A stretch of 64,000 bases of DNA from Nitrosopumilaceae archaeon (lineage in GTDB: Archaea; Thermoproteota; Nitrososphaeria; Nitrososphaerales; Nitrosopumilaceae). The notes under the pieces were generated by a model. It was not told where the DNA came from, searched no databases, and saw only the letters and a list, made by a program, of their open reading frames with translations. Shown here piece after piece: positions 3,642 through 34,053 of the stretch. Location: NCBI GenBank assembly GCA_022823825.1, contig JAJEHG010000033.1, positions 1 to 64,000 of the forward strand, written 5' to 3'. Every line of letters starts with the position of its first letter. Position 1 is the stretch's first letter. The translations under genes were made by a program, and so were the position numbers.

Positions 3642-5089
3642 TCACCGGACTGAGCCCAAGCGGCGCTCGAATCAGAGGCGATGACTATCAGCATTTATTC
3701 ACGTGGTGGCAAGCGCTCAGAGCGGTTATTGGAGCGAGTGACATAATCAAAATAGGGATAGAAGATCCCAGTGCCAAAAACGCTGACGACGTCACCGTGT
3801 ACATGAAAAACGGAGTGCGGGAATACTATCAGGCAAAGTCTTCCGTCGACGCACGCGACCCTGTTGGAATTATGTGGCTTATGAAACCCTCGAGATCAGG
3901 AGGATCGAGTATAATCCAAAGATTCTATAATCTGTGGGAAGGCGAACAAGACGGGCACAAACCCAAGATAATCTTGGTAACAAACCGTCTCCCTCTAGCA
4001 GGGGATATACTGAGCATGAGAGACGGCCGGGACTGCACCATCGTACGCCACTTACGAAGTGCACAGCCCAGATCAAAGACAGGTTCTATTCGTCGTGAGC
4101 TTGCCAAACACCTCGGGGTCACTGAAAGTAAGGCAGTGCAGTTCTTCCATGATTTTCAGCTCTGGTTTGGAATAACCGATAATTTGCTAACAGATTCTGT
4201 GCGGGATCGTATGCACATGGCTGGCCTTCGTTATGACGAGGAGGCAATAGCTCGAGGTGTAGCGATTGTGCATGACTGGGTAACAGGAGGAAAAAGAGAG
4301 ATCATAACAGCAGAGTTGCACCAAGTGGTTGAACCATTAAAGCAGCCCGACGATCCACCAAAGGCCTCAATCCTTGTCCAAGCAATTGACCGTGACACTA
4401 TCCCGGAAGCTGCTACAGTTGTCCTTGACTGGTTATGCTTGTTTCCAGGCAACGAACCAAGAGTCAGGCGCCAAGCGTCAGACCCGACGCTGTGGAATAA
4501 CCGGTTTAGGCCAGAACTACGACAGGCAGCGCGGGAACTGCGATCGCAAGGACACACTCACATTCTAGTTAAGGGGTATATGCGCTTGTCTACGTGGTTT
4601 ACCGCTGGCGTGGAGCTGGGTAAGATGGCGGGATTTGAGGTTTCATCATTTCAGGGCCTGGCTGCATGGTCTTCGGTTGGAAACGTGCCTAGCATTGGCA
4701 TCAAGCATACTACTACAACTCTAGGATTCGGCAAAGATCTTGCAGTGGGTATCGCTTTGGCAATGGATCCCTCTGCAGACGTGTTAACATATCTTCGTGA
4801 CCAGCGAATTGATGTGGGGGAGTACGTCTGCATAAGCCCTACGAGTGGCGCCAACAACCAAACCATTGGCAACGCTGCCGAGGCTAGAGGCTGGGCTTAT
4901 AGCGTACGAGACTCGGTTCGTCGCCTCGTTCTGAAATATGAACCGGGCCAAATACATCTCTTCCTAGCAGGCCCACACGGAGCGATACTTTTGTTGGGTC
5001 ACTTGTGGGATCGCATGCCACACACACAATTATACGAGGATCTCAATTCACCTAAAGGATACGCTCCTTCGTATCTAATTCCTAGATAA
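3638..5089 (+). CDS. CBASS effector, Cap4-like DUF4297 nuclease with SAVED domain
   Basis: The 483-residue protein looks like Cap4: an N-terminal PD-(D/E)xK-type DUF4297 nuclease and a C-terminal SAVED nucleotide sensor. The first part has IRGDDYQHL near 12-20, then D51 and Q65-A-K67 as the probable catalytic D...(E/Q)xK set. The last 200 residues carry SAVED hallmarks: ISPTSGANNQT, then the LFLAGPHGAILLLGHLWDR region and a late YED. In known systems ligand binding to SAVED drives assembly and indiscriminate DNA cutting, killing the infected cell. The gene overlaps the ATPase gene by four bases and closes the operon. Identification is by motifs; ligand and cut preference are unknown. Confidence 0.85.
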   Translation: MITGLSPSGARIRGDDYQHLFTWWQALRAVIGASDIIKIGIEDPSAKNADDVTVYMKNGVREYYQAKSSVDARDPVGIMWLMKPSRSGGSSIIQRFYNLWEGEQDGHKPKIILVTNRLPLAGDILSMRDGRDCTIVRHLRSAQPRSKTGSIRRELAKHLGVTESKAVQFFHDFQLWFGITDNLLTDSVRDRMHMAGLRYDEEAIARGVAIVHDWVTGGKREIITAELHQVVEPLKQPDDPPKASILVQAIDRDTIPEAATVVLDWLCLFPGNEPRVRRQASDPTLWNNRFRPELRQAARELRSQGHTHILVKGYMRLSTWFTAGVELGKMAGFEVSSFQGLAAWSSVGNVPSIGIKHTTTTLGFGKDLAVGIALAMDPSADVLTYLRDQRIDVGEYVCISPTSGANNQTIGNAAEARGWAYSVRDSVRRLVLKYEPGQIHLFLAGPHGAILLLGHLWDRMPHTQLYEDLNSPKGYAPSYLIPR

Positions 5090-10738: not shown

Positions 10739-12619
10739 CTAGTAGTAGTGGTGCATCTGGCGCTGCTCCAGGCCCTCCTGCTCCCAGTGGTTGTGGTTCC
10801 TGCCGGGATCCTTGTGGGCGTGCACGGTGCCGTCTATGTGGCAGTGCGTGTTGTCGATCAGATCCTTGACAAAGACGTCGTCCACGTTCAGGACGGCGCA
10901 TGCGGCCTCGGCGGAGCTCTTGAGAACCTGGGCCTTTACGGCATACGGCTCTATGACGCTGTGGTCCAGGCGGGAGACGTCGCATATGCTCCTGGAGGCA
11001 TGGTCGACGCCGTACCAGGCGGGGGGCGGGCCGGGGGCGGCGCCGTCGTCGTCGTTGCCCCCACCACCAGACCCGCCGGCGCGATCGCGGTTGCGGGTCG
11101 CCGCCGCGGCGCGCGATCCCCGGCGGTCGCCGTACACCCTCGAGCGCAGGAGCGGCAGCGCGTCGAGCGGCTCGATTCCGACGTTCTCGGCAAGGGTCAT
11201 CGGAACCGACTCGAGCGCGTCTGCAAACCTTGCGGCCGCGACCTGCATCTTTCCGGCCATCGCGCCCGACTCGTCCCTGACCCGCCGTGCGAGAATGGCC
11301 TCGCAGGAGCCCGCCCCGTACACCAAATACGGGCATTCGATGAAATCCCTCAGCACGTGCAGCACGTTGAGCGCGGTGCGGTGAAACTCGTCCAAGTACC
11401 TCTTTGAGTTGGCCCGCAGGAGAAGCGTCACGGACTTTGCGTCGTTGCGCCCGGACTCGACGAAGAGCATCCTGTCCCCGCCCACGCTCCTCTCGCATAC
11501 CAGGCCCGCATGCCCCAGCTCCGCGCCTGATATGTCGCGTATGTCCGTGCACGTGACGGCGCCCGTCGCCTTTTCAAGCCACCATATGTCGTTGTGCTTG
11601 ACCCGCCTCACAGAGATTATGCCGCTCCTCGCAAGCATCTCCTGGGCCTCGTCGTCAATCCCCTTGCGGGATATGACCACGTTGGCGCCGCTGCCGATCA
11701 CGCTGTCCACCACGCCGCGCACGTCGGCGGACTCCTGGCGCAGGAACTCTTTCATCTGTTTGGGGGAGTCCACCTCAATCTCCGACTCCGTCTTGGTGCG
11801 ACTGCGCTCAAGCGGCTCGCTCACAAGCAGTATCCGGGCATCGCGCACGGAGCGGGGCATGGCTGCACTGTCCACGGGCTTGTCGATTACGGTGCCCATG
11901 ACCAGCTCGGTCTGCGCCGCGCTGCCGGGCTTTTCCTCTATCTTGACATCGTCAGTAAAGGCGCGTCCGGAGGACACGTCAGACGTGCAGTATGCGGCGC
12001 GTACCAGCATGTCGACGATGCCGCCCCGGCTTCCGGCGCCGTTGTAGCGGCCGCCGCTGTCTCCGCGTCCGCCACGGCCGCCGCTACCACCCCCCCGGCC
12101 ATCCCGGGCGCGGCTCCCCTCGCATAAATCCCCGAGCGCCTTGCCCCTGATGCAGCAGCTCGCCAGGTCGTGCATGGTGCGCCGGTCCGAGGCCCTGCCC
12201 TCGAACTTTATTCGCTCCAGCTCCGCCAGCGCCGCGGCCAGTCCCGCCTCATACCCCGCAATTATGCTGGCAGTCGGGATGCGCAGGGCGCGCATCTCCC
12301 TGGCATTCCTGAGCAGCGCCCCGATCAGCACCGCCGCGGTCGTGGTCCCGTCGCCCACGTGGTTGTCCACCGAGTTTACCGCGTCGATTACTGCCTTGGC
12401 GGCCGGGTGATCCACGTCAATCTTGCGCAGAAACGCGCCCCCGTGCACGGTCACGGTATCCTCGCCGAGTATGTCGACGTACACCTTTGTCATGCCGCGC
12501 GGACCGAGCGCCGTTTTTACCGTCTGGGTTACGAGCTCGCCGGCAACCATATTGTACATCTGCGACTCCTGCACGCCGATACGCGACAGGTCGGCGTTGA
12601 ATATGTCGGGGTACTTCAT
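10739..12619 (-). CDS. Divergent thermosome (group II chaperonin) subunit
   Basis: The 626-residue protein has the group II chaperonin layout: TALGPRGMTKV near 36-46, VGDGTTTAA near 88-96, IWWLEKATGA in the apical region, the YGAGSCE segment (canonical GGGAxE), and VIEPYAVKAQVLKSSAEAA near the end. It departs from the family in important places. The usual NDGATIL reads VHGGAFL, so a conserved Asp needed for ATP hydrolysis is lost. Long Gly/Arg/Asp-rich insertions sit near residue 175 and near 510. The tail is His/Gln-rich (HNHWEQEGLEQRQMHHYY). It may be a non-hydrolysing or specialised subunit that assembles with standard thermosome subunits encoded elsewhere (inference). Confidence 0.85.
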   Translation of the reverse strand: MKYPDIFNADLSRIGVQESQMYNMVAGELVTQTVKTALGPRGMTKVYVDILGEDTVTVHGGAFLRKIDVDHPAAKAVIDAVNSVDNHVGDGTTTAAVLIGALLRNAREMRALRIPTASIIAGYEAGLAAALAELERIKFEGRASDRRTMHDLASCCIRGKALGDLCEGSRARDGRGGGSGGRGGRGDSGGRYNGAGSRGGIVDMLVRAAYCTSDVSSGRAFTDDVKIEEKPGSAAQTELVMGTVIDKPVDSAAMPRSVRDARILLVSEPLERSRTKTESEIEVDSPKQMKEFLRQESADVRGVVDSVIGSGANVVISRKGIDDEAQEMLARSGIISVRRVKHNDIWWLEKATGAVTCTDIRDISGAELGHAGLVCERSVGGDRMLFVESGRNDAKSVTLLLRANSKRYLDEFHRTALNVLHVLRDFIECPYLVYGAGSCEAILARRVRDESGAMAGKMQVAAARFADALESVPMTLAENVGIEPLDALPLLRSRVYGDRRGSRAAAATRNRDRAGGSGGGGNDDDGAAPGPPPAWYGVDHASRSICDVSRLDHSVIEPYAVKAQVLKSSAEAACAVLNVDDVFVKDLIDNTHCHIDGTVHAHKDPGRNHNHWEQEGLEQRQMHHYY

Positions 12620-12658: not shown

Positions 12659-14302
12659 TCAGGCCCCCGCGTTCGGCACGCCGCCGGGCGCGTTGCCGAC
12701 CCCTTTTGCGCCGCCGTCCTTGCCGCCTGCGCCTTCCCCGTCATCGCCGCCAGAGTCCTGCGGCACTCCCTCGAGTCCAGAGCTCATAAAGTCCTCCCTA
12801 AAGTGCCTCAGGTCCTCGCCTGCAATCACGTCCTCCTCGGGCGGCACATAGTCGCGCACGTCGTGCCGGGCCTTTCCCGGATACCGGTTCTGGGTCGCAA
12901 GGGCCACTGTGATGAACACTACGAATGAGACGACCGGCGGAATCATGGTGTCCAGCCCCGCCCACTCCGCGGGCATGGTAAAGAAGAACGACAGCCGCAG
13001 GAACGACGCTATCAGAAGGGACGCGACGGCGGCAGGCATGTTTGCCTTCTTCCAGAACAGTCCCAGGGTAAGCGGTGCAAAGGCCCCCGCAAACATGATG
13101 TCAAAGGCCAGCACCAGGTAGACCCCGGGGTTGGGCACCAGGTACCCCAGCGTGGTCCCCGCCACGATCATGGGGAAGAGCGTTACCCTGGTCATCCACA
13201 GCAGGCTCTGGTCGCTGGTGCCGGGCTTTCCAAGCCACCTCCTGCGTATTATCCTGGTTACCAGGTTGCGCGACACGACGCTTGATATGGCCAGCAGGCC
13301 CCCGCTGGCAGTGGACATGGACGCCCCGATCACCCCCATGAGGATGGCCGCGCCCACCGCAAAGGGCATGTGCATGGTGCTGAGTAGCGGGAGCGCGAAC
13401 CCGGGATCCGTGTCGCCTGGCAGGTAGTAGAGCGCCACTATGCCGAGCATGCTGGTGGGCACGACGGTGAACAGGGTGAGGGCCCCGCCCATGTATGCGC
13501 CCCGCCTCGCCGTCTTTGGATTCTTTGAGGCAAACACGCGCTCCATAAAGTCCAGGGCAACGATGTCTCCCAGCCCCAGCGCCAGTATGGCGCCCCAGTT
13601 TATCAACGCCCCGTTCCCGATGTCAAACAGTCCGGACAGGTCCAGGAACTCGGGCGGCGCGTTCGCGTATATGACGGCCCACGGGGCGTCTGCAAACCCG
13701 CCCGCAAAGTACAGGAACCCGACCCAGAACGCGGCGATCGCAAGATACACCTGGAACAGGTTGGTGTACGCTGACGCAAACAGGCCGCCCGCGCAGGTGT
13801 ACGCCACCACCACCAGGGCCGAGAATAGGATCCCCCAGAAAAAGTCAATCCCGAACACGATCTCCAGTATGAACCCGCTTGCGGCCAGGTTCCCCGCTAC
13901 CAGGACGGTAAAGCTGATTATCATGAGCACTCCGGATATGCCCTCCGCCGCGTTGCCGTACCTCCTGTAGTAAAAGTCCGGCAGCGTGATCATCTGCATC
14001 TTGTTGAGGGGCTTTGCGTAGAACGTGGCAGTGATCAGCAGGCATACGCCCAGCCCTATGGGCACGACGGCCCCGGCCCAGAATCCGAACTCAAAGACCA
14101 GCGCCACGTTGCCAAGCGACGAGTTGCCGTCCACGGCCTGCGCGGCGAGCATCGTCCCGACCATGGCAAGCGGCAGGCTCTTGCCCGCGACAATCAGCCG
14201 CTTGCCGCTCTGCTTTATGAGCCGGCCCGACAGGACGCCGACTACCAGCGTGAGTATAATGAACAGTATGATCGCGGCCCCAAAGCCGTCTATCTCCGCC
14301 AA
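12659..14302 (-). CDS. Sodium/solute symporter family (SSS) protein
   Basis: The protein has 547 residues with about 13 hydrophobic segments and SSS features such as the AAQAVDGNSSLGNV stretch and SASGGLLAISSVVSRNLV. A polar Gly/Asp/Ala-rich tail of about 60 residues follows the last membrane segment. The start is a TTG at 14302; an AT-rich box (aatatttaatag) lies about 30 bases upstream, supporting a leaderless TTG start. It is less similar to Dur3 than the two other SSS proteins in this window (26119 and 41048), so its solute is open. It follows no obvious operon partner. Confidence 0.82.
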   Translation of the reverse strand: MAEIDGFGAAIILFIILTLVVGVLSGRLIKQSGKRLIVAGKSLPLAMVGTMLAAQAVDGNSSLGNVALVFEFGFWAGAVVPIGLGVCLLITATFYAKPLNKMQMITLPDFYYRRYGNAAEGISGVLMIISFTVLVAGNLAASGFILEIVFGIDFFWGILFSALVVVAYTCAGGLFASAYTNLFQVYLAIAAFWVGFLYFAGGFADAPWAVIYANAPPEFLDLSGLFDIGNGALINWGAILALGLGDIVALDFMERVFASKNPKTARRGAYMGGALTLFTVVPTSMLGIVALYYLPGDTDPGFALPLLSTMHMPFAVGAAILMGVIGASMSTASGGLLAISSVVSRNLVTRIIRRRWLGKPGTSDQSLLWMTRVTLFPMIVAGTTLGYLVPNPGVYLVLAFDIMFAGAFAPLTLGLFWKKANMPAAVASLLIASFLRLSFFFTMPAEWAGLDTMIPPVVSFVVFITVALATQNRYPGKARHDVRDYVPPEEDVIAGEDLRHFREDFMSSGLEGVPQDSGGDDGEGAGGKDGGAKGVGNAPGGVPNAGA

Positions 14303-20495: not shown

Positions 20496-21020
20496 ATGCC
20501 CGGCAGTGGTTATTCTACAATCGCCCTCAAGCCGAGCATACTGGCGCTCCTCACGAGCGTCACGGACACGTTTTATCCGGGAATGTTCCTTCCAAGCACC
20601 CTGATAATCCTGATGAACGAGGTGAGGCTGGGGCGATACACGGTGAAGATGCACATCCACAGGCTGGACCTCTCAGGCAAGTACAACACGCTGACCATAC
20701 GCAACGACATAAAGGAGTGGATTGACGGCCACCACAAGGAGCACATGGAGGAGTACGTGGCCAAATACCGCATAAAGTGCTACTCGCACTTTGTCAGCTA
20801 CTTTCTTGCAAACCTGTTCGAGTCAAAGTTCGAGTCGCAGAGCGGGGTCATACGGCTGCAGGAGTCGGACTTTGGGTGGCTTCGCTCCGAATACGAGTCG
20901 CACCGCGCCGCATCCGCGGGATCCGGGAACGGCCCGATGACCTTTGACAGGTTTGCCGACGCGTACGTAAACGACATCCTGAAAAAGATGAGGGCCGCAA
21001 AGGAGATTCTCTCTGCCTGA
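20496..21020 (+). CDS. Unknown protein, 174 aa
   Basis: The ATG at 20496 is well placed behind a TATA-like box. The protein starts MPGSGYSTIALKPSILALLT and is mixed helix/strand with no signal peptide. It contains a basic-aromatic centre (KYRIKCYSHFVSYFLANLF) and a helical end (VNDILKKMRAAKEILSA). It is convergent with the small gene 21025-21279, four bases apart. It looks like a conserved cytosolic archaeal protein, but I recognise no family. Confidence 0.65.
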   Translation: MPGSGYSTIALKPSILALLTSVTDTFYPGMFLPSTLIILMNEVRLGRYTVKMHIHRLDLSGKYNTLTIRNDIKEWIDGHHKEHMEEYVAKYRIKCYSHFVSYFLANLFESKFESQSGVIRLQESDFGWLRSEYESHRAASAGSGNGPMTFDRFADAYVNDILKKMRAAKEILSA

Positions 21021-21024
21021 GCCG

Positions 21025-21279
21025 TCACAGCGGCGTCATGGTGTCGATCAGCCTGGCGTTTGTAACCTGGCAGTCCTTCTCCTGTATCTCGAGGTCCACT
21101 GTATACTTTAGGCCGTCACGCATAAAGTTCACCTGCACGTCCCACGCCACGCGCGGCCCCTTTTCGGGTATCTGAAACGTCTCGTTGACCCTAAAGTTGG
21201 ATATCGCGTCGCCGTACAGGGACGTGATGACGCGCCTGGACTCGCGCTCTATGTCCTCCGGCGTGCTTACCGCAACCAT
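21025..21279 (-). CDS. Small conserved-looking protein, 84 aa
   Basis: Starts MVAVSTPEDIERESRRVITS, followed by alternating beta-type segments (RVAWDVQVNFMRDGLKYTVD) and a short acidic end. Size and pattern suggest one small alpha/beta domain. Its stop faces that of 20496-21020. AT-rich DNA (ttataagat) about 25 bases before the ATG supports leaderless expression. Function unknown. Confidence 0.6.
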   Translation of the reverse strand: MVAVSTPEDIERESRRVITSLYGDAISNFRVNETFQIPEKGPRVAWDVQVNFMRDGLKYTVDLEIQEKDCQVTNARLIDTMTPL

Positions 21280-21429: not shown

Positions 21430-22689
21430 TCAGCTGCCGCCTCCGCCCCCCCTTCCTCTTTTGGCGGCCTCTTTTTGCGCCTTTGTGATTTTTTCCACTA
21501 CCTTGTCCCGGTAGTACTCGGCAGTGCGGTTGCCGGGATCAAGCGCGAGCGCCTTTTCGTACGATTCAAGGGCCTCGTCGTGCCGCCCCATCAGGTACAG
21601 CAGCTTTCCGCGATAACTGTGCGCGTACGCGTACTCCGGATCCGCGTCGATGGCCAGGTCGCAGTACTCAAGGGCTTCGGCATGCCGCTTACGGTGCTCC
21701 AAGACCCAGACCATGCTGCACAAAGCCTTGGGGTTTGAGGGGTCGGCGCGTATCGCGGCGTCGCAAAAGAACTCGGCCGCGGCATGCTGCTTTAGCGAGT
21801 GCAGCGCGATCCCCTTGCTGTACAGGGCCCTGACGTTTCTCGGGTCATACTCGAGTATCCTGTCAAGGCACGCGACTGACTTGCGGTACATGCCGGTCCG
21901 GTCATACAGGAAGCTCAGGTTGAGGTGGGCCTCGGTGCAGTGCGGGTCGACCTGTATGGCCTTCTCATAGAGCGGGACCACGTCCTTTGAGGGAAGCCCC
22001 GCATAGTCAAGTGTCCAGCCCTTTGCCACGAGGGCGTCCACGTTCTCCGGGTTCAGGCGCAGCGCCCTAGTGTACACCTCCACCGCCTTTTCGTGCTTTT
22101 TCTGCCGTGACAGCGCCTTGCCCTGCTCGTACAGGGCAGCAGACTGCCTGGCCTCGGCCTTTCTTGCGTCGTCCAGGGCCGATATGGACTCGGCATCCCT
22201 GCGCATGCGGCTCAGGACGCGGCTCCTGCAGTAGTGGGCCTGCACGTGGTCGCCGCCGCTTCTCGATATCACCCCGTCAAGCATCGCGACGGCCTCGCCG
22301 TGGCCCCCGAGCCCGCTCCTGCAGAGGGCCGAGTACACCACGGCGTCGTCATATGTGGCGTCTATCGCAAGGATCCTCTCAAAGTGCACGAGGGCCTCCG
22401 CGTACTTGTGCTGCTTTTCGAGCGAGAGCCCCAGGCCCTGCAGGGCGTCTATGTTGGAGGGGTCGGACTCTACTATCTCCTCATAGCGGCGTGCGGCGTC
22501 GCCGTACCTTCCCGCCTGGTAGTGTATGCCCGCAATGTGCATCAGGGCGGTCCCGTTGTGCGGGTTTATGCTCAAGGCCTTTGCGAATTGGGAAGCCGCC
22601 TTTGAGAGCTGCCCGTACCGCTCGCACCGCAGCCCCTCGTTTATGTGACGCCACTCGTTTACGCCGCGCCCCCTTCCTGCAAATACCAC
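21430..22689 (-). CDS. TPR-repeat protein
   Basis: About ten 34-residue tetratricopeptide repeats fill the 419 residues, each ending in a pattern such as AALSINPHN, IVESDPSNIDALQGLG, LRLNPENVDALVAKG or LALDPGNRTAEYYRD. The C-terminus is basic and Gly-rich (KRGRGGGGGS). TPR arrays are scaffolds for protein contacts, so the partner decides the role. The frame also opens at a TTG at 22695, but the ttataac box at 22711-22717 is better spaced for the GTG at 22689. No signal peptide is seen, so the protein is probably cytosolic. The neighbours give no clear pathway. Confidence 0.8.
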   Translation of the reverse strand: MVFAGRGRGVNEWRHINEGLRCERYGQLSKAASQFAKALSINPHNGTALMHIAGIHYQAGRYGDAARRYEEIVESDPSNIDALQGLGLSLEKQHKYAEALVHFERILAIDATYDDAVVYSALCRSGLGGHGEAVAMLDGVISRSGGDHVQAHYCRSRVLSRMRRDAESISALDDARKAEARQSAALYEQGKALSRQKKHEKAVEVYTRALRLNPENVDALVAKGWTLDYAGLPSKDVVPLYEKAIQVDPHCTEAHLNLSFLYDRTGMYRKSVACLDRILEYDPRNVRALYSKGIALHSLKQHAAAEFFCDAAIRADPSNPKALCSMVWVLEHRKRHAEALEYCDLAIDADPEYAYAHSYRGKLLYLMGRHDEALESYEKALALDPGNRTAEYYRDKVVEKITKAQKEAAKRGRGGGGGS

Positions 22690-22845
22690 GCGCAAACTAG
22701 ACGCACGCGCTTATAACTTTGGATATTATCGCGCGGACAGCCGTACTTGTCATACGATCCGGCGCGTCCTGTCGGCGCCACACTGCACATTCGTACTTTA
22801 CTTGGAATCTTTATTTATCCAGAATGCGTCACATGGTTGATTATC

Positions 22846-23961
22846 ATGGGGATGGAGTTTTACGGTGACGATTACCGGGGGGCCGACGTTGCGCCGTTTG
22901 TTGGAATAAACACGTTTCTGCACCTGCCCTGGATCAGGAGCCACGCCGAGCTGGTGGAGGCAAACCCCGACGTGGCGATAATAGGCGAGCCTTTTGACTT
23001 TGGTACCACGATACGGCCGGGCGCAAGGTACGGCCCGCGGGCCCTGCGCGCCGCGTCCACCATACCGTCGCCCCCGTACGAGCGGTTCAACATAGAGACC
23101 GGGGCCGACCCGTTTGGCACGTTCAGGACCGTGGACTATGGCGACGTGCATGTCTCGCCGGGCGACGTGATAGAGTCGCACAAGAGGATGACCGTAAAGG
23201 TAAAGGAGGTGCTCGAGCAAGACGGCATCCCGGTCATGCTCGGGGGGGACCACTCCATAACGTACGCCAACGTAAGGGCGTTTGCAAAAAAGTACAAGCG
23301 GATAGGCATGATACACTTTGACACGCACGCGGACTGCGCGCCGCAGGGCCTGACGGGCTACAAGTACGACCACGGGGCCCACATACGCCGCATAATGGAG
23401 ATCGGGTGCATGAAGGGGCGCAACTACTCGCTTGTGGGGCCGCGCGGATACTGGCCGGGGCCGGACCTTTACAAGTGGATGTCCGACCAGGACTTTCAGT
23501 GGTTTACGATGCTCGACGTGGAGGAGATGGGCATAGACTATATCGCAAAGGAGATTGCGGACCGCGCAAACGACGGGACGGACGCGGTATACCTGAGCTG
23601 GGACATAGACTCGTTTGACCCCGCGTACGCCCCCGGCACCGGGGAGCCGGAGCCCAACGGGCTGACATCCAGGGAGGGCATCCGCATGATCAGGCTGCTC
23701 TCAAAGTCCTTTGACCCGGACCGCTTTGCGATGGACTTGGTGGAGGTCTCGCCGGCGTACGACGTCAGCGACAACAGCTCGTACAACGGCGGAATTACAT
23801 CGGGCCTTGGCCAGCGGCTGATCGTGGAGCTGCTGGCGGGACTCTCGCTTACAAAGAGGGGGCTTGAGGGCGGCAGCCCCGTAAGGCCGAGGGACTATCG
23901 CGGTACGGGCAACACGTACAACTTTGGAAACCCGCGGGCGGAGATTCCTGATCGCGGTTGA
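22846..23961 (+). CDS. Ureohydrolase (agmatinase/arginase family; substrate open)
   Basis: The 371-residue protein has the full manganese or nickel binding set of the ureohydrolase fold: GGDHS, HFDTHAD and SWDIDSFDPAYAPGTG, in the usual order. Family members release urea from agmatine, arginine, guanidinobutyrate or guanidine. The enzyme is longer than many agmatinases. A TTTATTTAT box at 22809-22817 supports the ATG at 22846 (an alternative is 22852). The genes after it encode a UreA-like protein and a nickel permease, and urease lies 5 kb on, so the product urea could pass straight to urease. Guanidine is a serious candidate substrate because some nitrifiers use such enzymes. Confidence 0.85.
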   Translation: MGMEFYGDDYRGADVAPFVGINTFLHLPWIRSHAELVEANPDVAIIGEPFDFGTTIRPGARYGPRALRAASTIPSPPYERFNIETGADPFGTFRTVDYGDVHVSPGDVIESHKRMTVKVKEVLEQDGIPVMLGGDHSITYANVRAFAKKYKRIGMIHFDTHADCAPQGLTGYKYDHGAHIRRIMEIGCMKGRNYSLVGPRGYWPGPDLYKWMSDQDFQWFTMLDVEEMGIDYIAKEIADRANDGTDAVYLSWDIDSFDPAYAPGTGEPEPNGLTSREGIRMIRLLSKSFDPDRFAMDLVEVSPAYDVSDNSSYNGGITSGLGQRLIVELLAGLSLTKRGLEGGSPVRPRDYRGTGNTYNFGNPRAEIPDRG

Positions 23962-24038
23962 CGCGTAATACACACCGCCGCCACAGCCGCCCACTGCAGT
24001 GCACCATCCGGGTAACCGCGCGGGGAGCAGACAGGGAC

Positions 24039-24503
24039 ATGGGCCCGCTGACCAGGCGGTACGACATTGTGGATGGAAACGACGAGGAGATGCTTGCGGT
24101 GGCGGCCGACTCGATCCAGAACATGATCGCCGGCAACCGCAGGATAAACATCAACGATGTCATGCTGCTGTACGGGGCATGCGCGTACTCGTCTGCGGCA
24201 GCAGGCCTGCAGGGTTCATGTACGGCTGCAATCGAGGAGGGACTGCCGGACATGCTGTCCGACCACCAGGTGATGATTGGCGTGCCGGACATGATCAAGC
24301 GCCTTGAGATCAGCATCACGGACAGGGCGGGAGGCGGCACGGTAAATGTCGCGGTGCAGGATCCGATCAGGCCCACACCGTATATGAAGCGGGGATTGGG
24401 GCAGGGGCAGTCACCATCGCCATCGCCATCGCCATCGCCATCGTTTAGCGACAGCAGCGGGGGAGACGGCAGCGGCAGGGTGGCCCTAGGGGAGATGCCA
24501 TGA
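24039..24503 (+). CDS. Divergent urease gamma (UreA)-like protein
   Basis: From the ATG at 24039 the protein has 154 residues. Its middle aligns with UreA: LSDHQVMIGVPDMIKRLEIS and NVAVQDPI (residues 73-110) match the [18 protein letters not shown] and VTVHDPI parts of the true UreA encoded at 30643. The N-terminal third is much changed. After the homologous part comes a tail of Ser-Pro repeats made by a CCATCG hexamer repeat, then a Gly/Ser-rich stretch. It overlaps the nickel permease gene by four bases (ATGA), so both are probably made together. It may regulate or feed urease assembly, or be a repurposed subunit. The link to UreA is by my own alignment. Confidence 0.6.
   Translation: MGPLTRRYDIVDGNDEEMLAVAADSIQNMIAGNRRININDVMLLYGACAYSSAAAGLQGSCTAAIEEGLPDMLSDHQVMIGVPDMIKRLEISITDRAGGGTVNVAVQDPIRPTPYMKRGLGQGQSPSPSPSPSPSFSDSSGGDGSGRVALGEMP
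24413..24443. repeat. CCATCG hexamer microsatellite in coding DNA
   Basis: About five copies of CCATCG encode alternating Ser-Pro residues in the tail of the UreA-like protein. Change in copy number would keep the frame. Confidence 0.75.
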
Positions 24504-25360
24504 CCGTGCTGGACGGGCTGCTTGCGGGCGTGTCCCACGCGCCGCATGCAGAGGCCCCCCTGCTCTTGCTGGGGGCTGGACTGCTGATAGGGCTGTACCA
24601 CGCGTTGGAGCCGGACCACGTAACCGCGGTGATGTCGTCTGTCAGGCGGGGCCACAGGGGGGAGAAAAGACAGAGCAGAAGGACGGCGGGCATAACGGGC
24701 TCCATATCGGGCCTGCTGTGGGGGTTCGGACACGCGTCCAGCATATTCCTAGTGGCGGTGTTAGTCATCATACTGTCCGTGAACATCCCGAACGGACTGT
24801 TTGACATATTCGAGATGGGGGTGGGGGCCATGCTGATCCTGCTTGGCGTGTCGGCCGTATGCGAGGGGGGTGGCGGCACGAAAAGGTGGACGCTGCCGTT
24901 CCTGTCACGGCTCTGGACCCACTCGCACGTCCATACGCACGAGGACGGGACGACACATTCCCACCCGCACGACCACGGCGACGGACGCGAGGGGTGGAGC
25001 GACAGCAGTACGGGCCACCACGCGCACAGCCACGTCCCGTACGTCATAGGATGCGTGCACGGCCTGGCCGGAAGCGGGGGGCTGGTGGTATTGGCCCTGG
25101 CGGCCATGCCGGAGGCAATAACGTCGTCTGCGGCCGATGCCGGGGCGCTGGTGCCGTTGCCGCTGCTGCTCGCGTCAGTGTTCGGCGCGGGGTCGACGAT
25201 CGGCATGGTACTGGTGGCGGGCGCCCTGTCACTATTGTTTGCGGTATGCGGCAGCACCAACACCGCAAGAAAGATTATACGGTACGCGTCTGGGGGCGCC
25301 GCCATACTGTTTGGCGCGTATATCATTGCAGGCGGCGCGGCCGCGGCGCTGGGAATATAG
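24500..25360 (+). CDS. UreH/NicO-type nickel permease
   Basis: The 286-residue membrane protein carries the NiCoT/UreH nickel signature YHALEPDHVTAV near 33-44 and GFGHASS near 76-82. About six hydrophobic segments are present. Between the third and fourth is a His-rich loop (HSHVHTHEDGTTHSHPHDH) likely to gather nickel ions. It should bring nickel into the cell for urease. Start overlap with the UreA-like gene and closeness to the urease operon support that role. Cobalt is the alternative metal. Confidence 0.85.
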   Translation: MTVLDGLLAGVSHAPHAEAPLLLLGAGLLIGLYHALEPDHVTAVMSSVRRGHRGEKRQSRRTAGITGSISGLLWGFGHASSIFLVAVLVIILSVNIPNGLFDIFEMGVGAMLILLGVSAVCEGGGGTKRWTLPFLSRLWTHSHVHTHEDGTTHSHPHDHGDGREGWSDSSTGHHAHSHVPYVIGCVHGLAGSGGLVVLALAAMPEAITSSAADAGALVPLPLLLASVFGAGSTIGMVLVAGALSLLFAVCGSTNTARKIIRYASGGAAILFGAYIIAGGAAAALGI

Positions 25361-26118: not shown

Positions 26119-28329
26119 TCACGCCCCCGATTTTGCCCCGTCGTCTTTGTCGCTGTCGCCGCCGCCACTGTCGCCGTCGCCGTCATCGTCGGCCTCGTCT
26201 GCAGGATCATCCTCGACGGCCTCCTGCGCACCGGATTCCGTGACGACTGTCTTCCTGCCCCTGGCGACCTGTGCGATTCCATGTCTCGCTTCTATGATGG
26301 GCAGCCCAACTATAAAAAAGGTCGCGGCGCTCACCCACGTGACGGCTATGCCGACCCACAGCGAGTAGAATCCTATATCAAACACGTACCCGGAGAAGAA
26401 CAGCGGCATGGGCCACGCTATGATCAGCACCAGGGTCATGATCCCGCCTCCCTTTAGGCTGAACTTGAACGCGCGGTTAAGCGTCCTTTCGTCCGCGTCG
26501 AGCGCGGCCTTTTCGGCCTGGCTGATGTCCACCAGCTTTATCCTCTCCCTCATGACGGCCCAGTCGAACTTGGTCCTAGCGGCCAGGCTTCCCAGGCCCG
26601 CAATGGCTCCGCCCGTAAGTATGCCGGCTATGTTACCAAACAGCATGGAATAGTTGTGCCCCAGGCTGGCAAGCGACACCTCGCCGCCGAACTCCGGCAG
26701 CGACGCGGCCACGCCTACCCACGTGCCCAGCGCAACGAAGAGCCCCGCAATCGCGCCTATCGTGGCGGCGTACTTGTTCGTGCGCTTCCACGTGATCGTC
26801 AGGGCTATCGGTATCACGGCAGAGCCGATCAGCACGCCCATCGCTAGGTACACGAACCCCAGTGACAGCCCCATGCTCAGCAGTATCACCGCCAGGCCGC
26901 CCATGCCCAGGCCGAACCCGATTATGGTGGCGCGCGAGACCTTTAGCAGCTGCTTTCCCGTCGCCGCCGGGTTCTTGTACGTCCGGTACACGTCGTACGT
27001 GATCAGCGACGAGACGGCGATCAGTTCGGCGGATCCCGCAGACGTGACGGCCATGAACAGCATGGTCAGCACCATCACGGCGCCCACCTCGCCCATCAGG
27101 ACAGACGCGGCGGCGGGTACCGTGAGCCCGAGCTGGACCTGCTCCGGCGTCAAATCCACGCCGAGCGCGACGGCCGTAAGTCCCATGGTAGTTGCAAGCG
27201 TAAACGGAATGGCAAACCAGCAGGCGCCCCCGAGCAGGAACCCCTTTACCGTGGACTGCGGGCGGGCGGCGATCGCGCGCTGCCAGTACGCCTGGTCCAC
27301 GAACACGGTGCCAAAGTTGCCCACGATGTTGATCACGCCGAATATCAGCCCGCCGATGGACGCCATGGTAAGGTAGGCGCCCGCCGCGTTGCCCTCCACG
27401 GGGTTTATGCGCGCGGCCTCGACGAGCTTGTCGTACATCCCCTCGATGCCGCCCGTAACGGGGCTGATAAAGTAGACCGTGCTGACGAATATCAGTATCA
27501 CGATGAATATTATGATCGTATGCATATAGTCCGCCACGAACGTGGCCTTGAGCCCGCCGACCAGCGTGTATATCATCACGCCTATCGGGATCAGGAACGC
27601 GGCAAGCGAGATGTCCATGCCGGTCAGCCCGTTGACGACTGCCGCCCCGCCGAGAAGCAGCATGGCGGTTACAATCATGTTTGTCATCAGGGCGAAGACG
27701 AGAAATACCCGGTGGGCGCCGCCGCCGTACCTGGCCCTTATGATCTCCAGGAACGTGTGGGCGTTGGGCGCCTTGCGCTTGAGCTCTATTGCCAGTATGC
27801 CGAAGAGAAGGACCTGTATGGACGCGCCCGCCGCATACCAGAACGGGCCGCTTACCCCGTACTGGTAGGCGACCGTCGATGACTGCAGCAGCGTGGCGGC
27901 CCACGTCCAGGCAGATACAATGGCAGCCGCAGTAAGGCCTGTTTTGATCACCCTGCCCGCCGTGTTGAACCACTCGGAGGTCTGGGAGACGCCGAGGTAC
28001 CGTTCCTCTACCTTTGTCTCGATCGTGATTACGATCGCAAACACGGCGCCGAGTCCCACAACTATGAACCAGCCCCAGCTCTCGTCGAGCACGTCGCCTA
28101 TCGTGAATCCTTCCGCGATGGCACCGGCACCAAACGCCGGGTTTGGGACGCAGGATATAGCCAGTACGGCGACCAGCGCCACTGCCGCAGACGGCAAAAG
28201 TGCCTGCCGGGACATGATCGCCTTTTTGTTGACCGCCGCAGCAGATGCAATAGATTCAAGCGGCGCCACCACTGACGCCGTTATCGTAGAGAGGGTGGTA
28301 GTCGCAGGCTGTCCGCGCTCCATGCCCAT
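26119..28329 (-). CDS. Dur3-like urea:cation symporter (SSS family)
   Basis: The 736-residue protein has about 15 hydrophobic segments. TWAATLLQSSTVAYQYGVSG at about 140-160 is typical for the Dur3 branch of sodium/solute symporters, which take up urea at low concentration. FGVINIVGNFGTVFVDQAYW is another conserved patch. An N-terminal hydrophobic segment after MSRQALLPSAAVALVAVLAI could be a signal peptide, so the ATG at 28215 is an alternative start. The tail is acidic. A strong TATATAA-like box at 28374-28381 lies upstream. It sits between urease ureC and a zinc-ribbon gene, which fits a role as the urea importer. Confidence 0.85.
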   Translation of the reverse strand: MGMERGQPATTTLSTITASVVAPLESIASAAAVNKKAIMSRQALLPSAAVALVAVLAISCVPNPAFGAGAIAEGFTIGDVLDESWGWFIVVGLGAVFAIVITIETKVEERYLGVSQTSEWFNTAGRVIKTGLTAAAIVSAWTWAATLLQSSTVAYQYGVSGPFWYAAGASIQVLLFGILAIELKRKAPNAHTFLEIIRARYGGGAHRVFLVFALMTNMIVTAMLLLGGAAVVNGLTGMDISLAAFLIPIGVMIYTLVGGLKATFVADYMHTIIIFIVILIFVSTVYFISPVTGGIEGMYDKLVEAARINPVEGNAAGAYLTMASIGGLIFGVINIVGNFGTVFVDQAYWQRAIAARPQSTVKGFLLGGACWFAIPFTLATTMGLTAVALGVDLTPEQVQLGLTVPAAASVLMGEVGAVMVLTMLFMAVTSAGSAELIAVSSLITYDVYRTYKNPAATGKQLLKVSRATIIGFGLGMGGLAVILLSMGLSLGFVYLAMGVLIGSAVIPIALTITWKRTNKYAATIGAIAGLFVALGTWVGVAASLPEFGGEVSLASLGHNYSMLFGNIAGILTGGAIAGLGSLAARTKFDWAVMRERIKLVDISQAEKAALDADERTLNRAFKFSLKGGGIMTLVLIIAWPMPLFFSGYVFDIGFYSLWVGIAVTWVSAATFFIVGLPIIEARHGIAQVARGRKTVVTESGAQEAVEDDPADEADDDGDGDSGGGDSDKDDGAKSGA

Positions 28330-28413: not shown

Positions 28414-30126
28414 CTAGTACAGGCTGTACAGCCTTCCAAGGGACAGGCGCGTCGCCGGCTCGGAGGTGGCCGGCCTGCCGTCCACCACGACCTCGTAGGT
28501 CTCAGGATTGATGCGTATCTCAGGCGTCAAATCGTTGTATACCATGTCCTTTTTGCCTATGCCGCGGCAGTTCTCGACTGGCACCAGCCTCTTTGAGGTC
28601 CCGAGGAGGTCTGGAAGCCCGCGCGATAGGGCCAGCTTTGAGGTGAACGTGACCGACGTCGAGTGCTTGGCCGAGCCTAGCGCCCCGAACATCGGGCGGT
28701 AGTACACCGGCTCGGTCGTCGGTATGCTCGCGTTGGGATCGCCCATCAGCGAGTACGCCACAAACCCGCCCTTTATGATCATCTTGGGCTTTATGCCGAA
28801 GAACTGCGGCGTCCATACCACGATGTCGGCTAGCTTGCCGGGCTCAAGCGAGCCGACGTGCGCCGATATCCCGTGCGTTATGGCCGGGTTTATGGTGATC
28901 TTGGCAAGGTACCTCTTTACGCGCACGTTGTCGTTGTCGCCGAGCTCGCCGGCAAGCCGCCCCGCGCTGCGCTTCATCTTGTCGGCGGTCTGCCAGTTCC
29001 TGGTGGTAACCTCCCCCACCCTTCCCATCGCCTGGCTGTCAGAGGACATCATGGATATGGCGCCCATGTCGTGCAGGACGTCCTCGGCCGCTATGGTCTC
29101 GCCGCGTATGCGCGACTCGGCAAACGAGAGGTCCTCAGGGACGGAGGGGTTCAGGTGGTGGCAGACCATCATCATGTCGAGGTGCTCTGCAAGCGTGTTG
29201 ACCGTAAACGGGCGCGTCGGGTTGGTGGAGGACGGCAGTATGTTCGGCTCCCCGGCCACCCTCATTATGTCGGGCGCGTGCCCCCCGCCGGCCCCTTCCG
29301 TGTGGTACGTGTGGATGGTCCGGCCCGCTATGGCCTGTATGGTGTCGTCGACAAAGCCGCACTCGTTGAGCGTGTCGGTGTGTATCGCGACCTGCGTGTC
29401 CGTCTCGTCTGCCACGCGCAGGGCCGAGTCTATGGTGGCGGGGGTGGTCCCCCAGTCCTCGTGCAGCTTCAGCCCGCAGGCGCCGGCCCCCACCTGCTCG
29501 AGGAGCGACTCGGGCCGAGAGTCGTTGCCCTTGCAGAGGAACCCAAAGTTGAGGGGGTACTCCTCGGCGGCCTCTATCATGCGGTGTATGTTCCACGAGC
29601 CCGGCGTGCAGGTCGTGGCCTTTGTGCCGTCGGCCGGCCCCGTGCCGCCGCCTATCATGGTGGTGGTGCCGTTGCATATGGCGTCGACTGCCTGCTGCGG
29701 CGAGATGAAGTGGATGTGCGTGTCTATGGTGCCCGGCGTGCATATCGTGTGCTCGCCGGCGATCACCTCCGTGTTCGACGACACGGTCATCTCTATGCCG
29801 TCCATGATGTGCGGGTTGCCGGCGTTCCCGACGCCGGCTATGAGCCCGTCCTTTATCCCGATGTCGGCCTTTACGATGCCGAGCACGGGGTCCATGACAA
29901 TGGCGTTCGTAATCAGCAGGTCAAGCGAGTCCTCCCTCAGGACGCCGCTGGCCTGGCCCATCCCGTCGCGAGCGCTCTTTCCGCCGCCGAAGACGACCTC
30001 GTCGCCGTGCACGAGCAGGTCGCGCTCGATCTCTATTATCAGGTCCGTGTCGGCAAGCCGGACCCTGTCGCCTGTAGTGGGCCCGAACAGCTCGGCGTAC
30101 CGGCGCCGCGGAATCTCGAGCGTCAC
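28414..30126 (-). CDS. ureC: Urease alpha subunit
   Basis: The 570-residue protein has the normal UreC length and carries the metal-site residues: the IDTHIHF pair of histidines, the lysine that becomes carbamylated in [10 protein letters not shown], and the mobile flap [20 protein letters not shown]. It hydrolyses urea to ammonia and carbamate with two nickel ions. It is the last gene of ureA-ureB-ureC on this strand, and its start overlaps the ureB stop by four bases. In an ammonia oxidiser this supplies ammonia and carbon dioxide from urea. Confidence 0.97.
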
Positions 30127-30497
30127 CGCGACCTGTACCCCCTCTCCGCGGCAAGGCGCAGGGCCTCGTCCCTCTTCTGGTCCAGTGGCCCGTTGACCAG
30201 CCCGCCGAAGCCGTACACCGTCCTCTCCCCGCCGTACGCCACAAGGCTGACGGTGCGCGAGTCGCCCGGCTCGAACCGGACGGACGTCCCGGCGGGAATG
30301 TTCAGGTGGAACCCGTACGCCCTTTGCCGGTCAAAGGACAGGGCCCTGTTTGCCTCAAAAAAGTGGGCATGCGATCCGACCTGCACGGGGCGGTCCCCCG
30401 TGTTCGTGACCTGCACCGACGTAACGTCCCTGCCCCGGTTGAGCGTGATGTCGCCGTCTACTATGATGTACTCGCCGGGGATCTCGCGCGCTGTCAT
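30123..30497 (-). CDS. ureB: Urease beta subunit
   Basis: From the ATG at 30497 the protein begins [20 protein letters not shown] and has 124 residues, close to the usual size. [17 protein letters not shown] and the [10 protein letters not shown] patch are standard for UreB. The open frame continues 35 codons further upstream into a low-complexity Gly/Asn/Asp-rich segment, which I regard as less likely to be translated. It overlaps ureC by four bases and follows ureA by about 145 bases. Confidence 0.93.
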
Positions 30498-30642
30498 CGT
30501 CCGGCCGCGGCCCCCGTCGTGGTCTCCATTGCGATCATGATTGCCGCCACCGTAATTATCATTGCCGCCATCACCCATCGTCATCACCATCGCCGCCGCC
30601 ATGCGCCATCACAATCTCCACCGCAAGCACGACAAGCCATCC

Positions 30643-30945
30643 TCACTTTGCTATCGGGTCGTGGACGGTCACGAGCTTTGTGCCGTCGTCAAACGTGGCC
30701 TCCACCTGTATCGAATGTATCAGATCCGGAACCTGCGGCAGCACGTCGTCCTTACATAGCACGCTTCGGCCCGAGCTCATCAGCTCGGGCACGGTCCTGC
30801 CGTCGCGCGCGCCCTCCAGTATGTGGTCCGTGATTACGGCGACAGCCTCGGGGTGGTTGAGCTTTAACCCGCGCTCCTTGCGGCGCATCGCAAGCTGGGC
30901 CGCAAGGAACACGTGCAGCTTGTCAATCTCCCGCGGCGTAAGCAT
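30643..30945 (-). CDS. ureA: Urease gamma subunit
   Basis: From the ATG at 30945 it is 100 residues, exactly the classical UreA length, starting [20 protein letters not shown]. The [20 protein letters not shown] and [10 protein letters not shown] patches are standard. The frame also offers a start at 30972, but that ATG sits inside the TATA-like TTTAATAATTAA at 30974-30985 region, whereas 30945 is about 30 bases from it. It is the first gene of ureABC and is divergent from ureE. Confidence 0.95.
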
Positions 30946-30973
30946 CAATACATGAACCTGCGTGCGTGACATA

Positions 30974-31050: not shown

Positions 31051-31623
31051 ATGCTGGACGTCTACACCAAGATAGCGGGCAACAAATTCAACGGCGAGGA
31101 CAAAAAACTCGGCGGTGGTGGCGGCGAAATACGCGCGGGGAGTGGTGTGGCGTCGTTTGACACCGCCGTGATGCCGAGGGCCCGCATGGCAAAGAGCAGG
31201 CAGCTCGTAAGGACAGAGTCGGGGGCCGAAGTGGGGATAGACCTGAGACGGGGCGGGACCCTGCGCCACGGGGACATACTGCAAAGCGAGAACCCGGGGA
31301 GGCTCCCACTAATTATCCAGCAGTCCCCCGAAAAGGTCATAGTGGCAAGATCCCTGGCACGGGATCCGGGGGGCAACAATGGCGTGCCGCCTGCCGACAA
31401 TTGTTTTGAATTATGCCTGATTATAGGCCATATAATCGGGAACAGGCACCGCCCCATCTCGGTCAACGAGGGGGAAAAGACCGTGTCGTTCCCGATACAG
31501 GACGATTCGGAGCTGGAGACGTTTGAGAGGCTGCTCGGCCAGGCGGGGGGCGACGTCGAACTGAGGATTGCAAGTGAGATCTTTGTGCCGCATGCGGGGG
31601 CCGACGTGCATGGGCACCAGTGA
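31051..31623 (+). CDS. ureE: Urease nickel metallochaperone
   Basis: The protein has 190 residues. The N-terminal half has LRRGGTLRHGDIL, and the second half has LCLIIGHIIGNRHRPISV, which matches the GNRH metal-binding domain of UreE. The C-terminus ends in only a few His (HAGADVHGHQ), so a long His tail is absent; the His-rich loop of the nickel permease may store nickel instead (inference). It passes nickel to UreG. Its end overlaps ureF by 14 bases. Confidence 0.9.
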   Translation: MLDVYTKIAGNKFNGEDKKLGGGGGEIRAGSGVASFDTAVMPRARMAKSRQLVRTESGAEVGIDLRRGGTLRHGDILQSENPGRLPLIIQQSPEKVIVARSLARDPGGNNGVPPADNCFELCLIIGHIIGNRHRPISVNEGEKTVSFPIQDDSELETFERLLGQAGGDVELRIASEIFVPHAGADVHGHQ

Positions 31624-32344
31624 CGCGGAAGAGGCGGCGGCGGGAAACGGCGGCGCCTGCGCACCGGACGATCTCGACGCCCTGCAGATATCAGACTCGC
31701 TGTTTCCCACCGGGATGTTTGCATCATCAGGCGGGCTGGAGCTGATGTTTGCCAGGGGGATGGTAACTGGCGCGCGGGAGCTGTCGGAGCTGTGCAGGGA
31801 TCTGATCACCCACCAGGTCGGCGTTGGAGACTGCGTGGCCCTTGCAAACGCGTACGACGCGGCGTCCCTCAAAGACACGGATGCCATCGAGGAGGTGGAC
31901 GCCGCATGCTGCTCTGCAAAGACGGTGCGGGAGGCAAGGGACGCGTACGTGCGCTCCGGAGTGCAGCTGTGCAGGTGCGTCGCAGAGTTCTGCGGCGACG
32001 AGCGCCTGGCAAGATACCGCGGCTGCATAAGGGACAAGAGGGCCAGCGGGGTCTACCCGGTCGCGCTCGGCGTATGCTGCAGCGCGCTTCGAATCGAAAA
32101 GAGGAGGGCGGCGCACATACTGCTGTACGGGTTTGCCGCAAACATGGCGGGCGCCGCGCTGCGGCTTGGAATGATACAGCACTTTGAGGCGCAAAAGATG
32201 ATCCACGAACTAAAGCCCGCCATGAGGGAGGCCGCAGAGTCGTGCATTACAAGGGACATCTCAGAGATGTGGCAGTTCTGCCCGCACGCCGAGGTGCTGC
32301 AGATGGCGCACGCAAGGGCGGATGCAAACATGTTCATTACATGA
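31610..32344 (+). CDS. ureF: Urease accessory protein UreF
   Basis: I use the ATG at 31610, giving 244 residues. UreF motifs are ISDSLFPTGMFASSGGLE near residue 20-40 and the Arg/Ala-rich helices typical of this all-helical family, ending in SEMWQFCPHAEVLQMAHA. UreF bridges UreD to UreG in the activation complex that loads nickel into urease. The gene overlaps ureE and precedes ureG by 15 bases. Confidence 0.9.
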   Translation: MGTSDAEEAAAGNGGACAPDDLDALQISDSLFPTGMFASSGGLELMFARGMVTGARELSELCRDLITHQVGVGDCVALANAYDAASLKDTDAIEEVDAACCSAKTVREARDAYVRSGVQLCRCVAEFCGDERLARYRGCIRDKRASGVYPVALGVCCSALRIEKRRAAHILLYGFAANMAGAALRLGMIQHFEAQKMIHELKPAMREAAESCITRDISEMWQFCPHAEVLQMAHARADANMFIT

Positions 32345-32359
32345 CAGGCAACAGAAGGC

Positions 32360-33049
32360 GTGGATGGCGATATGGCAGTGAATGAGAGGATACCCAGGAT
32401 CGGAATAGGCGGGCCCGTGGGCTCCGGAAAGAGCATGCTGATTGAGCGCGTGGTGCCCGTGCTGGCGGGCCGCGGATACAGCGTGAGCATAATATCAAAC
32501 GACGTCATATCAAAGGAGGACGCGGACCGCATGAGATCCAACCTGGCCACGGAGCGCGGCCTGCTGCCGGAGAACCTGGTCGTGGGGCTGGCGACCGGCG
32601 GGTGCCCGCATACGGCCGTGAGGGAGGATCCGTCAATGAACATATCGGTAATAGAGGACATGGAGGGGGAGCACCCCGAGCTGGACCTCATAATAATAGA
32701 GAGCGGCGGCGACAACATAACCACCACGTTCAGCCCGCTGCTTGCAGACTATTTCATCTATATCATAGACGTGGCCGGCGGCGACAAGTATCCAAGGAAG
32801 GGCGGGCTTGGAATAACAAGCTGCGACCTGCTTGTGATAAACAAGACTGATCTGGCGCCCATGGTGGGCGCGGACCTGGAGGTGATGAGATCAGACGCCC
32901 TGAGGATCAGGGGCCCCGAAAAGCCGTTTGTCTTTGTAAACTGCATGACGGACAGGGGCATACCGGAGGTGGCCGATTTCATAGTGAGAAACCTGCTGTT
33001 CGGGGCCCCGCCAAAGGCCGGATCCAAAAAGGCAGGCGAGCCACAATGA
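32360..33049 (+). CDS. ureG: Urease accessory GTPase UreG
   Basis: The P-loop GPVGSGKS is at about residues 19-26, the nickel-binding Cys-Pro-His in TGGCPHTA, the ESGGDN segment near 116 and the NKTD base-recognition motif near 160. These identify UreG, which uses GTP to drive nickel delivery. The frame opens with GTG at 32360; an in-frame ATG at 32372 is equally likely. The stop overlaps the ureD start by four bases. Confidence 0.95.
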   Translation: MDGDMAVNERIPRIGIGGPVGSGKSMLIERVVPVLAGRGYSVSIISNDVISKEDADRMRSNLATERGLLPENLVVGLATGGCPHTAVREDPSMNISVIEDMEGEHPELDLIIIESGGDNITTTFSPLLADYFIYIIDVAGGDKYPRKGGLGITSCDLLVINKTDLAPMVGADLEVMRSDALRIRGPEKPFVFVNCMTDRGIPEVADFIVRNLLFGAPPKAGSKKAGEPQ

Positions 33050-34053
33050 CGGATGCCGCAGCCGGGGCCGGGGGAGGGGCGACAGCAGCTGCGACAGCGA
33101 CAGCTGAAGGAGGGATCTCGTCTCGGGATGACACATACGCCATACCGCCCCACAGGACGGGCATGGAGGGGCGCCTGCACCTGTCGCTGCACCGCGATGG
33201 CGTCAGGACGGTCCTAGGATCCCAGCGTGCAGAGCCCCCCCTGTCTGTGCAGAGGGCGCTCTACTGTGAACAATCCCTGCCGGACATGGCATACGTATAC
33301 ATCACATCCACGTCAGGCGGCATGCTCCAGGGCGACAGGCACATCACAAGGTTTGACCTAGGTGCCGGTGCAAGAGCCCACATTACGACGCAGGGGGCCA
33401 CTAGGATATACGGGGACGACGAGGCGTCGCCGGGCATGAAAAAGCCGGCGGCCAGGTCGTCCCTCCGCATGTCGCTGGGCGAGGACTCGTACCTAGAGTA
33501 CATACCCGACCAGATAATCCCGTACGCGGGATCTGGTTTTCAGCAGGATGCAGACATATCGGTGCACGGGACTGCGACCCTCGCATATGTAGAGACCGTG
33601 ACGCCGGGGCGCGTTGGGATGGGCGAGTCGTTTGCCTACAAGTCGTGCAACCTCAGGATGCGCGTCACGGACCAGGACGGAAGGTTCAGGTTTGTCGACG
33701 CGGCAAGGATGGAGCCGCGCGTTGCGCAGCAGTCGTTGCGGCCGCAGTCCAAAAACAAGCCAGGGTTGGACATCAAATCATTTGGAATAATGGCAGGGTA
33801 CGACGTCGTATCCTCGCTGTATGTAATTACGCAAAAAAAGCACGTAAATCAACTGCAAAAGGACATGGACGACATCATACTGCAACACGACAAGATTGCA
33901 GGCGGCGCCACCATAATGCGCGGCAATACCGGAGTGATGGCAAGGCTGCTGGGCCCCGACACCGAGTCCGTAAAGTCCGTCATAACAGAGGCCGTGGCCC
34001 ATGCAAGAAAGACCATTCTAAACGCGCCCTTTACCGACATCAGAAAGAGCTGA
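33046..34053 (+). CDS. ureD: Urease accessory protein UreD
   Basis: The 335-residue protein has a low-complexity Ala/Thr/Gly start of about 25 residues. The UreD signature follows: YITSTSGGMLQGDRH, ITTQGATRIY and LEYIPDQIIPYAGS, then VETVTPGRVGMGESFAY. UreD is the docking platform on apo-urease for UreF and UreG. It closes the ureEFGD set. It is convergent with rad50. Confidence 0.9.
   Translation: MTDAAAGAGGGATAAATATAEGGISSRDDTYAIPPHRTGMEGRLHLSLHRDGVRTVLGSQRAEPPLSVQRALYCEQSLPDMAYVYITSTSGGMLQGDRHITRFDLGAGARAHITTQGATRIYGDDEASPGMKKPAARSSLRMSLGEDSYLEYIPDQIIPYAGSGFQQDADISVHGTATLAYVETVTPGRVGMGESFAYKSCNLRMRVTDQDGRFRFVDAARMEPRVAQQSLRPQSKNKPGLDIKSFGIMAGYDVVSSLYVITQKKHVNQLQKDMDDIILQHDKIAGGATIMRGNTGVMARLLGPDTESVKSVITEAVAHARKTILNAPFTDIRKS

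Follow-up and report, generated by a model that had tools for sequence, protein, structure and literature searches.

The UreA-like protein (UL) encoded in the 64,000-nucleotide stretch of DNA that we analysed (hereafter the window) shares ancestry and fold with the urease gamma subunit, and we consider it rather probable, judging from gene order, gene distribution and selection, that UL no longer belongs to urease and now serves as a dedicated subunit partnering UH, an arginase-family ureohydrolase encoded directly in front of it. An earlier note on this DNA had recognised the paralogue and linked it to the nickel permease gene (NicO) that follows. The paralogue is real, but the key partner appears to be UH, which that note did not mention: UH lies immediately upstream of UL on the same strand at 54 of the 54 UL loci that were fetched, whereas NicO lies downstream of UL at only 27 of the 54 (counted by hand from the listing). 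We know of urease gamma only as a component of urease. No published account of the UH-UL pair was found in the open-access literature; we regard the pairing as novel, and the function that we assign to UL as a prediction. The features of the locus are listed in Table 1.

Table 1. Genes and sequence elements of the UH-UL locus and the urease cluster in the window.
Feature	Position	Strand	Basis
SSS-family transporter, member of the conserved UH island	12659..14302	-	PF00474 E=9e-23
Candidate TATA-like element tttatttat, ~30 bases 5' of the UH start	22810..22818	+	Read from sequence
UH, arginase-family ureohydrolase, 371 aa	22846..23961	+	PF00491 E=5.5e-81
UL, UreA-like protein, 181 aa, urease-gamma fold plus N-terminal beta-hairpin	23958..24503	+	Profile, fold; probable start codon TTG
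TTGA overlap of UH stop and UL start	23958..23961	+	Sequence; like overlap in 53/66 loci
Ser-Pro tail repeat, five perfect CCATCG copies	24414..24443	+	Sequence; low model confidence
NicO/HupE-type nickel permease, His-rich loop, ATGA overlap with UL	24500..25360	+	PF03824 E=7.9e-5; conserved operon place
ureC	28414..30126	-	PF00449 match 29761-30117
ureB	30123..30602	-	Sequence; position beside ureA and ureC; conserved cluster
ureA, true urease gamma subunit	30643..30972	-	PF00547 146.8 bits, E=2.7e-43
ureE, ureF, ureG, ureD (urease nickel-insertion genes)	31051..34053	+	Sequence and order
ureG	32396..32998	+	TIGR00101

The relationship of UL to UreA is visible only at the level of profiles. 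A BLASTP comparison of UL with the window's own UreA gave nothing, and as a single sequence UL stayed below the curated cut-offs of both PF00547 (15.5 bits, cut-off 23.9) and TIGR00193 (20.1 bits, cut-off 82.3; E=5.6e-4, C-terminal half only). A profile built from six members of the UL family, on the other hand, matched K. aerogenes UreA (1a5k) over its full length (94 residues, E=1.4e-16), and all significant matches of this profile were to urease gamma. The AlphaFold2 model of UL, built with 63 family members, pointed the same way. It had a mean pLDDT of 81.7, with values of about 90 or more over most of residues 11-140, and comprised a pair of N-terminal strands, followed by the three gamma helices and, at the C-terminus, a hairpin. 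When this model was compared with the PDB using Foldseek, the top 12 matches were all urease gamma and were followed by noise, with TM-scores of 0.68-0.77 on the target (UreA) side for separate gamma chains. Profile and predicted fold thus agree on the recognisable urease-gamma core described in the earlier note, and the true ureA that it had placed elsewhere in the window was also found (Table 1).

In the tree, the UL family is split from UreA by one branch (99/98 support), and its least changed member, that of genome G038, stands next to UreA. UL retains the LNxxE and GVPE motifs and the final P-I of UreA. It differs by an extra N-terminal hairpin with a GEPD motif, by the loss of 24 of the 34 positions conserved in UreA (only 6 of the 34 survive in 80% or more of the family) and by its linkage to an arginase-family gene, whereas ureA is linked to ureB and ureC. 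A search of 397 genomes of the phylum for UL gave, beyond the order, only what appear to be ordinary UreA proteins or UreAB fusions (one locus read).

With regard to the limits of the gene, the start previously given for UL, ATG 24039, lies about 27 codons too late. The relatives share a conserved N-terminus, MxIxVxGEPDxxPFTKxF, which aligns with window codons 5' of this ATG, and the true start is probably the TTG at 23958, within the UH stop codon. Among 66 loci, the UL start overlapped the UH stop in 53 (a four-base overlap in 39, a one-base overlap in 14) and followed it immediately in a further 3, giving 56 starts in or against the stop codon; the script took the start nearest the UH stop, which biases these counts towards overlap, yet this is also where the conserved stretch sets in. 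Such an arrangement suggests that UH and UL are translationally coupled. The ATGA overlap of UL with NicO is also confirmed, but the coupling to the permease proposed earlier is only half right, given the 27 of 54 loci in which NicO follows. The TATA-like element in front of UH is a possible single promoter for all three genes. The permease of the window matches PF03824 weakly (22.6 bits, cut-off 27.7); its orthologue in G038 and the neighbours of that sequence pass the cut-off, and the window protein has the conserved place in the operon and the His-rich loop. A plasmid comparison gave no match. The Ser-Pro tail that had been noticed on UL is present, but is probably without general importance, as only close relatives of the window carry it and it was modelled with low confidence.

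The association of UL with UH was maintained throughout the order. Among 250 genomes, UL occurred in 53 and UH in 64, and all 53 UL genomes had UH (Fisher test, p ~1e-43); an intact UL without UH was found in none of the 250. In a second, named collection, 75 loci, among them that of the window, had sufficient sequence, and the pair was present at 68 of these; the named loci all belonged to ammonia-oxidising archaea or their relatives. At 43 larger loci the UH-UL spacing was almost constant while the other neighbours shifted. Several lineages have retained UH after losing UL (G198, G226, L133, L176 and three g8 genomes), indicating that UH can work without UL. The exceptions in the named collection include four loci, L117, L118, L133 and L176, that have lost UL and in which NicO directly follows UH. 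Genome G201 no longer has UH; its NicO and urease are intact, but only 66 codons of UL are left, a case that amounts to one deletion and is weak evidence by itself. At locus L205, in a genome without UH, a cut-down UreA-like remnant (4512-4709) lies just 5' of an intact NicO.

Both genes are under selection, though to very different degrees. In the window's clade, UL gave dN/dS values of 0.27-0.43, while those of UH did not exceed 0.04; in genus g56 the corresponding values were 0.17-0.31 and at most 0.03. For UL of the window, comparison with two close relatives gave 0.27-0.41. Compared with L106, UH of the window showed zero amino-acid changes over 370 codons at a dS of 0.18. The ratios for UL (0.17-0.43) indicate purifying selection and hence a functional gene, and those for UH an unusually strong constraint. 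UL thus evolves far faster than UH, which is unusual for a tight catalytic subunit.

UH has an arginase domain and, by alignment, all six metal ligands of the family, and its nearest solved structures are 3nio, a guanidinobutyrase (E=1.3e-51), and 7esr, a guanidine hydrolase (E=1.6e-47). It would be annotated as an agmatinase, and shares the arginase family with archaeal SpeB. However, its score against the agmatinase model TIGR01230 (156.6 bits) falls below the curated cut-off (174.3), it forms its own clade on a long branch (100/100 support), and the genome of the window carries, on contig C4, a separate arginase-family gene encoding the usual kind of archaeal agmatinase, which is present in nearly all relatives; the ordinary SpeB orthologue in G016 is nearest to the archaeal agmatine ureohydrolase 3pzl. 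These comparisons identify UH as a second ureohydrolase, distinct from the ordinary agmatinase of the genome. An AlphaFold model of UH (mean pLDDT 60.8) was set aside, its poor quality probably being due to a too uniform alignment (76-95% identity).

The guanidine hydrolase GdmH (7esr, 9fek) resembles UH in family, length class and the six metal ligands; GdmH depends on nickel, and a gene for a nickel permease frequently lies near UH. UH was nevertheless ruled out as a GdmH, both by its separate clade and by the missing active-site tryptophan, which is replaced by glutamate (GTGEPEPNG in UH, GTGWPEPGG in GdmH). Genes for guanidine degradation were not found in these archaea by published surveys (PMC11410670; likewise PMC12625717). 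A further parallel is the metformin hydrolase MefH, a ureohydrolase that requires a second subunit and is encoded together with a nickel permease (hupE); both this enzyme and GdmH need nickel chaperones of the HypA/HypB type (PMC11399263). The second subunit of MefH is arginase-like and its operon encodes HypA/HypB, whereas the putative partner of UH is urease-gamma-like. In a soil clade, a 'SpeB' beside an SSS transporter has been described as conserved and expressed (PMC11131427), and this gene may be UH.

UH occurs almost only in genomes that bear urease. Using PF00449 (E<1e-40), a model limited to the N-terminal portion of UreC, ureC was detected in 97 of the 250 genomes, 59 of them among the 64 with UH. 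With G150 and G185 counted in, ureC is present in 61 of the 64 genomes with UH (p ~6e-28, a value that overstates the number of independent events because the genomes are related); the remaining three (G158, G176 and G238), not counted as ureC-bearing, are draft genomes. Urease was present without UH in 38 genomes and without UL in 49. In G038 the genes form a single operon, UH-UL-NicO-ureA-B-C-E-F-G-D. Genus g56, in which PF00449 detected no ureC in any of five UL-bearing genomes, at first sight seemed urease-free, but this proved to be an assembly artefact: contigs of G150 and G185 begin or end inside a truncated ureC beside ureE/F/G and G269 has ureF-G-D, so that in three of the five genomes the edges of contigs show a truncated ureC or urease accessory genes. 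Two drafts of this genus break inside ureC itself (L207 1-1289 and L209 3926-4306), perhaps at a repeat or at one of several copies. UH and urease may occur together because they serve one pathway, and not because they are in contact.

Contact is nevertheless what one of the two main rivals to a UH-UL partnership supposes, namely that UL anchors UH on urease, urea being handed straight to the urease active site. UL does derive from a urease subunit, the pair is nested in urease-bearing genomes and G038 has one common operon, but the residues conserved in UreA are mostly gone from UL, UL has been lost in several UH genomes having urease, and the benefit of tethering is doubtful, as urea diffuses freely. 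We consider this unlikely. The other main rival holds that UL regulates UH or the operon, for instance by sensing nickel or nitrogen status. The UL family lacks a conserved set of Cys or His residues that could bind metal, and UL has no DNA-binding fold; this makes regulation improbable as well, even if translational coupling would give a fixed dosage, half of the operons include a nickel permease and the rapid evolution of UL would fit. That UL serves as an alternative gamma subunit of an unusual urease, an option raised in the earlier note, is very improbable in spite of the common fold and ancestry, given that so few of the conserved UreA positions are kept, that the urease operon carries its own ureA, that 49 urease-positive genomes do without UL, that UL is always tied to UH, and that G201 keeps urease and NicO despite its loss of UH and reduction of UL. 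A decaying ureA duplicate without function, already disfavoured, is hardly credible at all. The fast divergence and repeat-born tail in the window's clade and the losses in several lineages would fit it, but two separate clades show purifying selection, the origin is single and the coupling has been preserved across the order.

The reading of UL as a partner subunit of UH accounts for the fixed adjacency, the overlapping codons, the purifying selection and the near restriction of the pair to urease genomes; against it stand the lineages that keep UH after losing UL, the much faster evolution of UL and the absence of NicO from half of the operons. According to this reading, UH would split urea off a guanidino compound, and the native urease would then turn the urea into ammonia, which would provide energy and nitrogen. 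UL would bind UH in a fixed ratio and aid its assembly or activation. Within such a partnership, we judge the likeliest role of UL, though still less likely than not, to be that of an adaptor delivering nickel to UH, perhaps from UreDFG, with NicO supplying the nickel. A possible link to nickel would run through UH, a relative of the nickel-using GdmH and metformin hydrolase, and is favoured by the 27 of 54 loci with NicO next and by the four at which it directly follows UH. That UL lets UH draw on UreDFG is plausible because these relatives need nickel chaperones, because no HypB above the cut-off was found in 14 genomes (the best matches were mostly UreG), and because, in the complex that activates urease, UreD contacts the gamma domain (PMC10121161). 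It is conceivable, if somewhat doubtful, that UL as an adaptor for using UreDFG or for docking on urease has opened guanidino compounds to these organisms as a source of nitrogen and energy. That ammonia oxidisers from the sea, from sponges and from soil alike retain the pair points to a urea-releasing pathway that has been missed, its enzyme passing as an agmatinase. Whether ammonia-oxidising archaea use guanidino compounds thereby becomes testable, and UL would illustrate a way in which a subunit of a metalloenzyme may be reused.

Other genes recur near UH, most of them at varying distance. The SSS transporter of Table 1 was near UH in 41 of the 43 larger loci and would be a candidate importer of the UH substrate; it differs from the urea-transporter-like protein at 26119-28329. 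Two small proteins gave no Pfam or NCBIfam match: an 84-residue protein with a conserved NARLIDTMTPL-like end (21025-21279, minus strand; 40/43 loci, at varying distance) and a 174-residue protein (20496-21020, plus strand; 35/43, also at varying distance), for which a regulatory function is a guess. A TPR protein (21430-22695, minus strand) was near UH, again at varying distance, in 34 loci, and a chaperonin of the Cpn60/TCP-1 type (10739-12619, minus strand) in 33.
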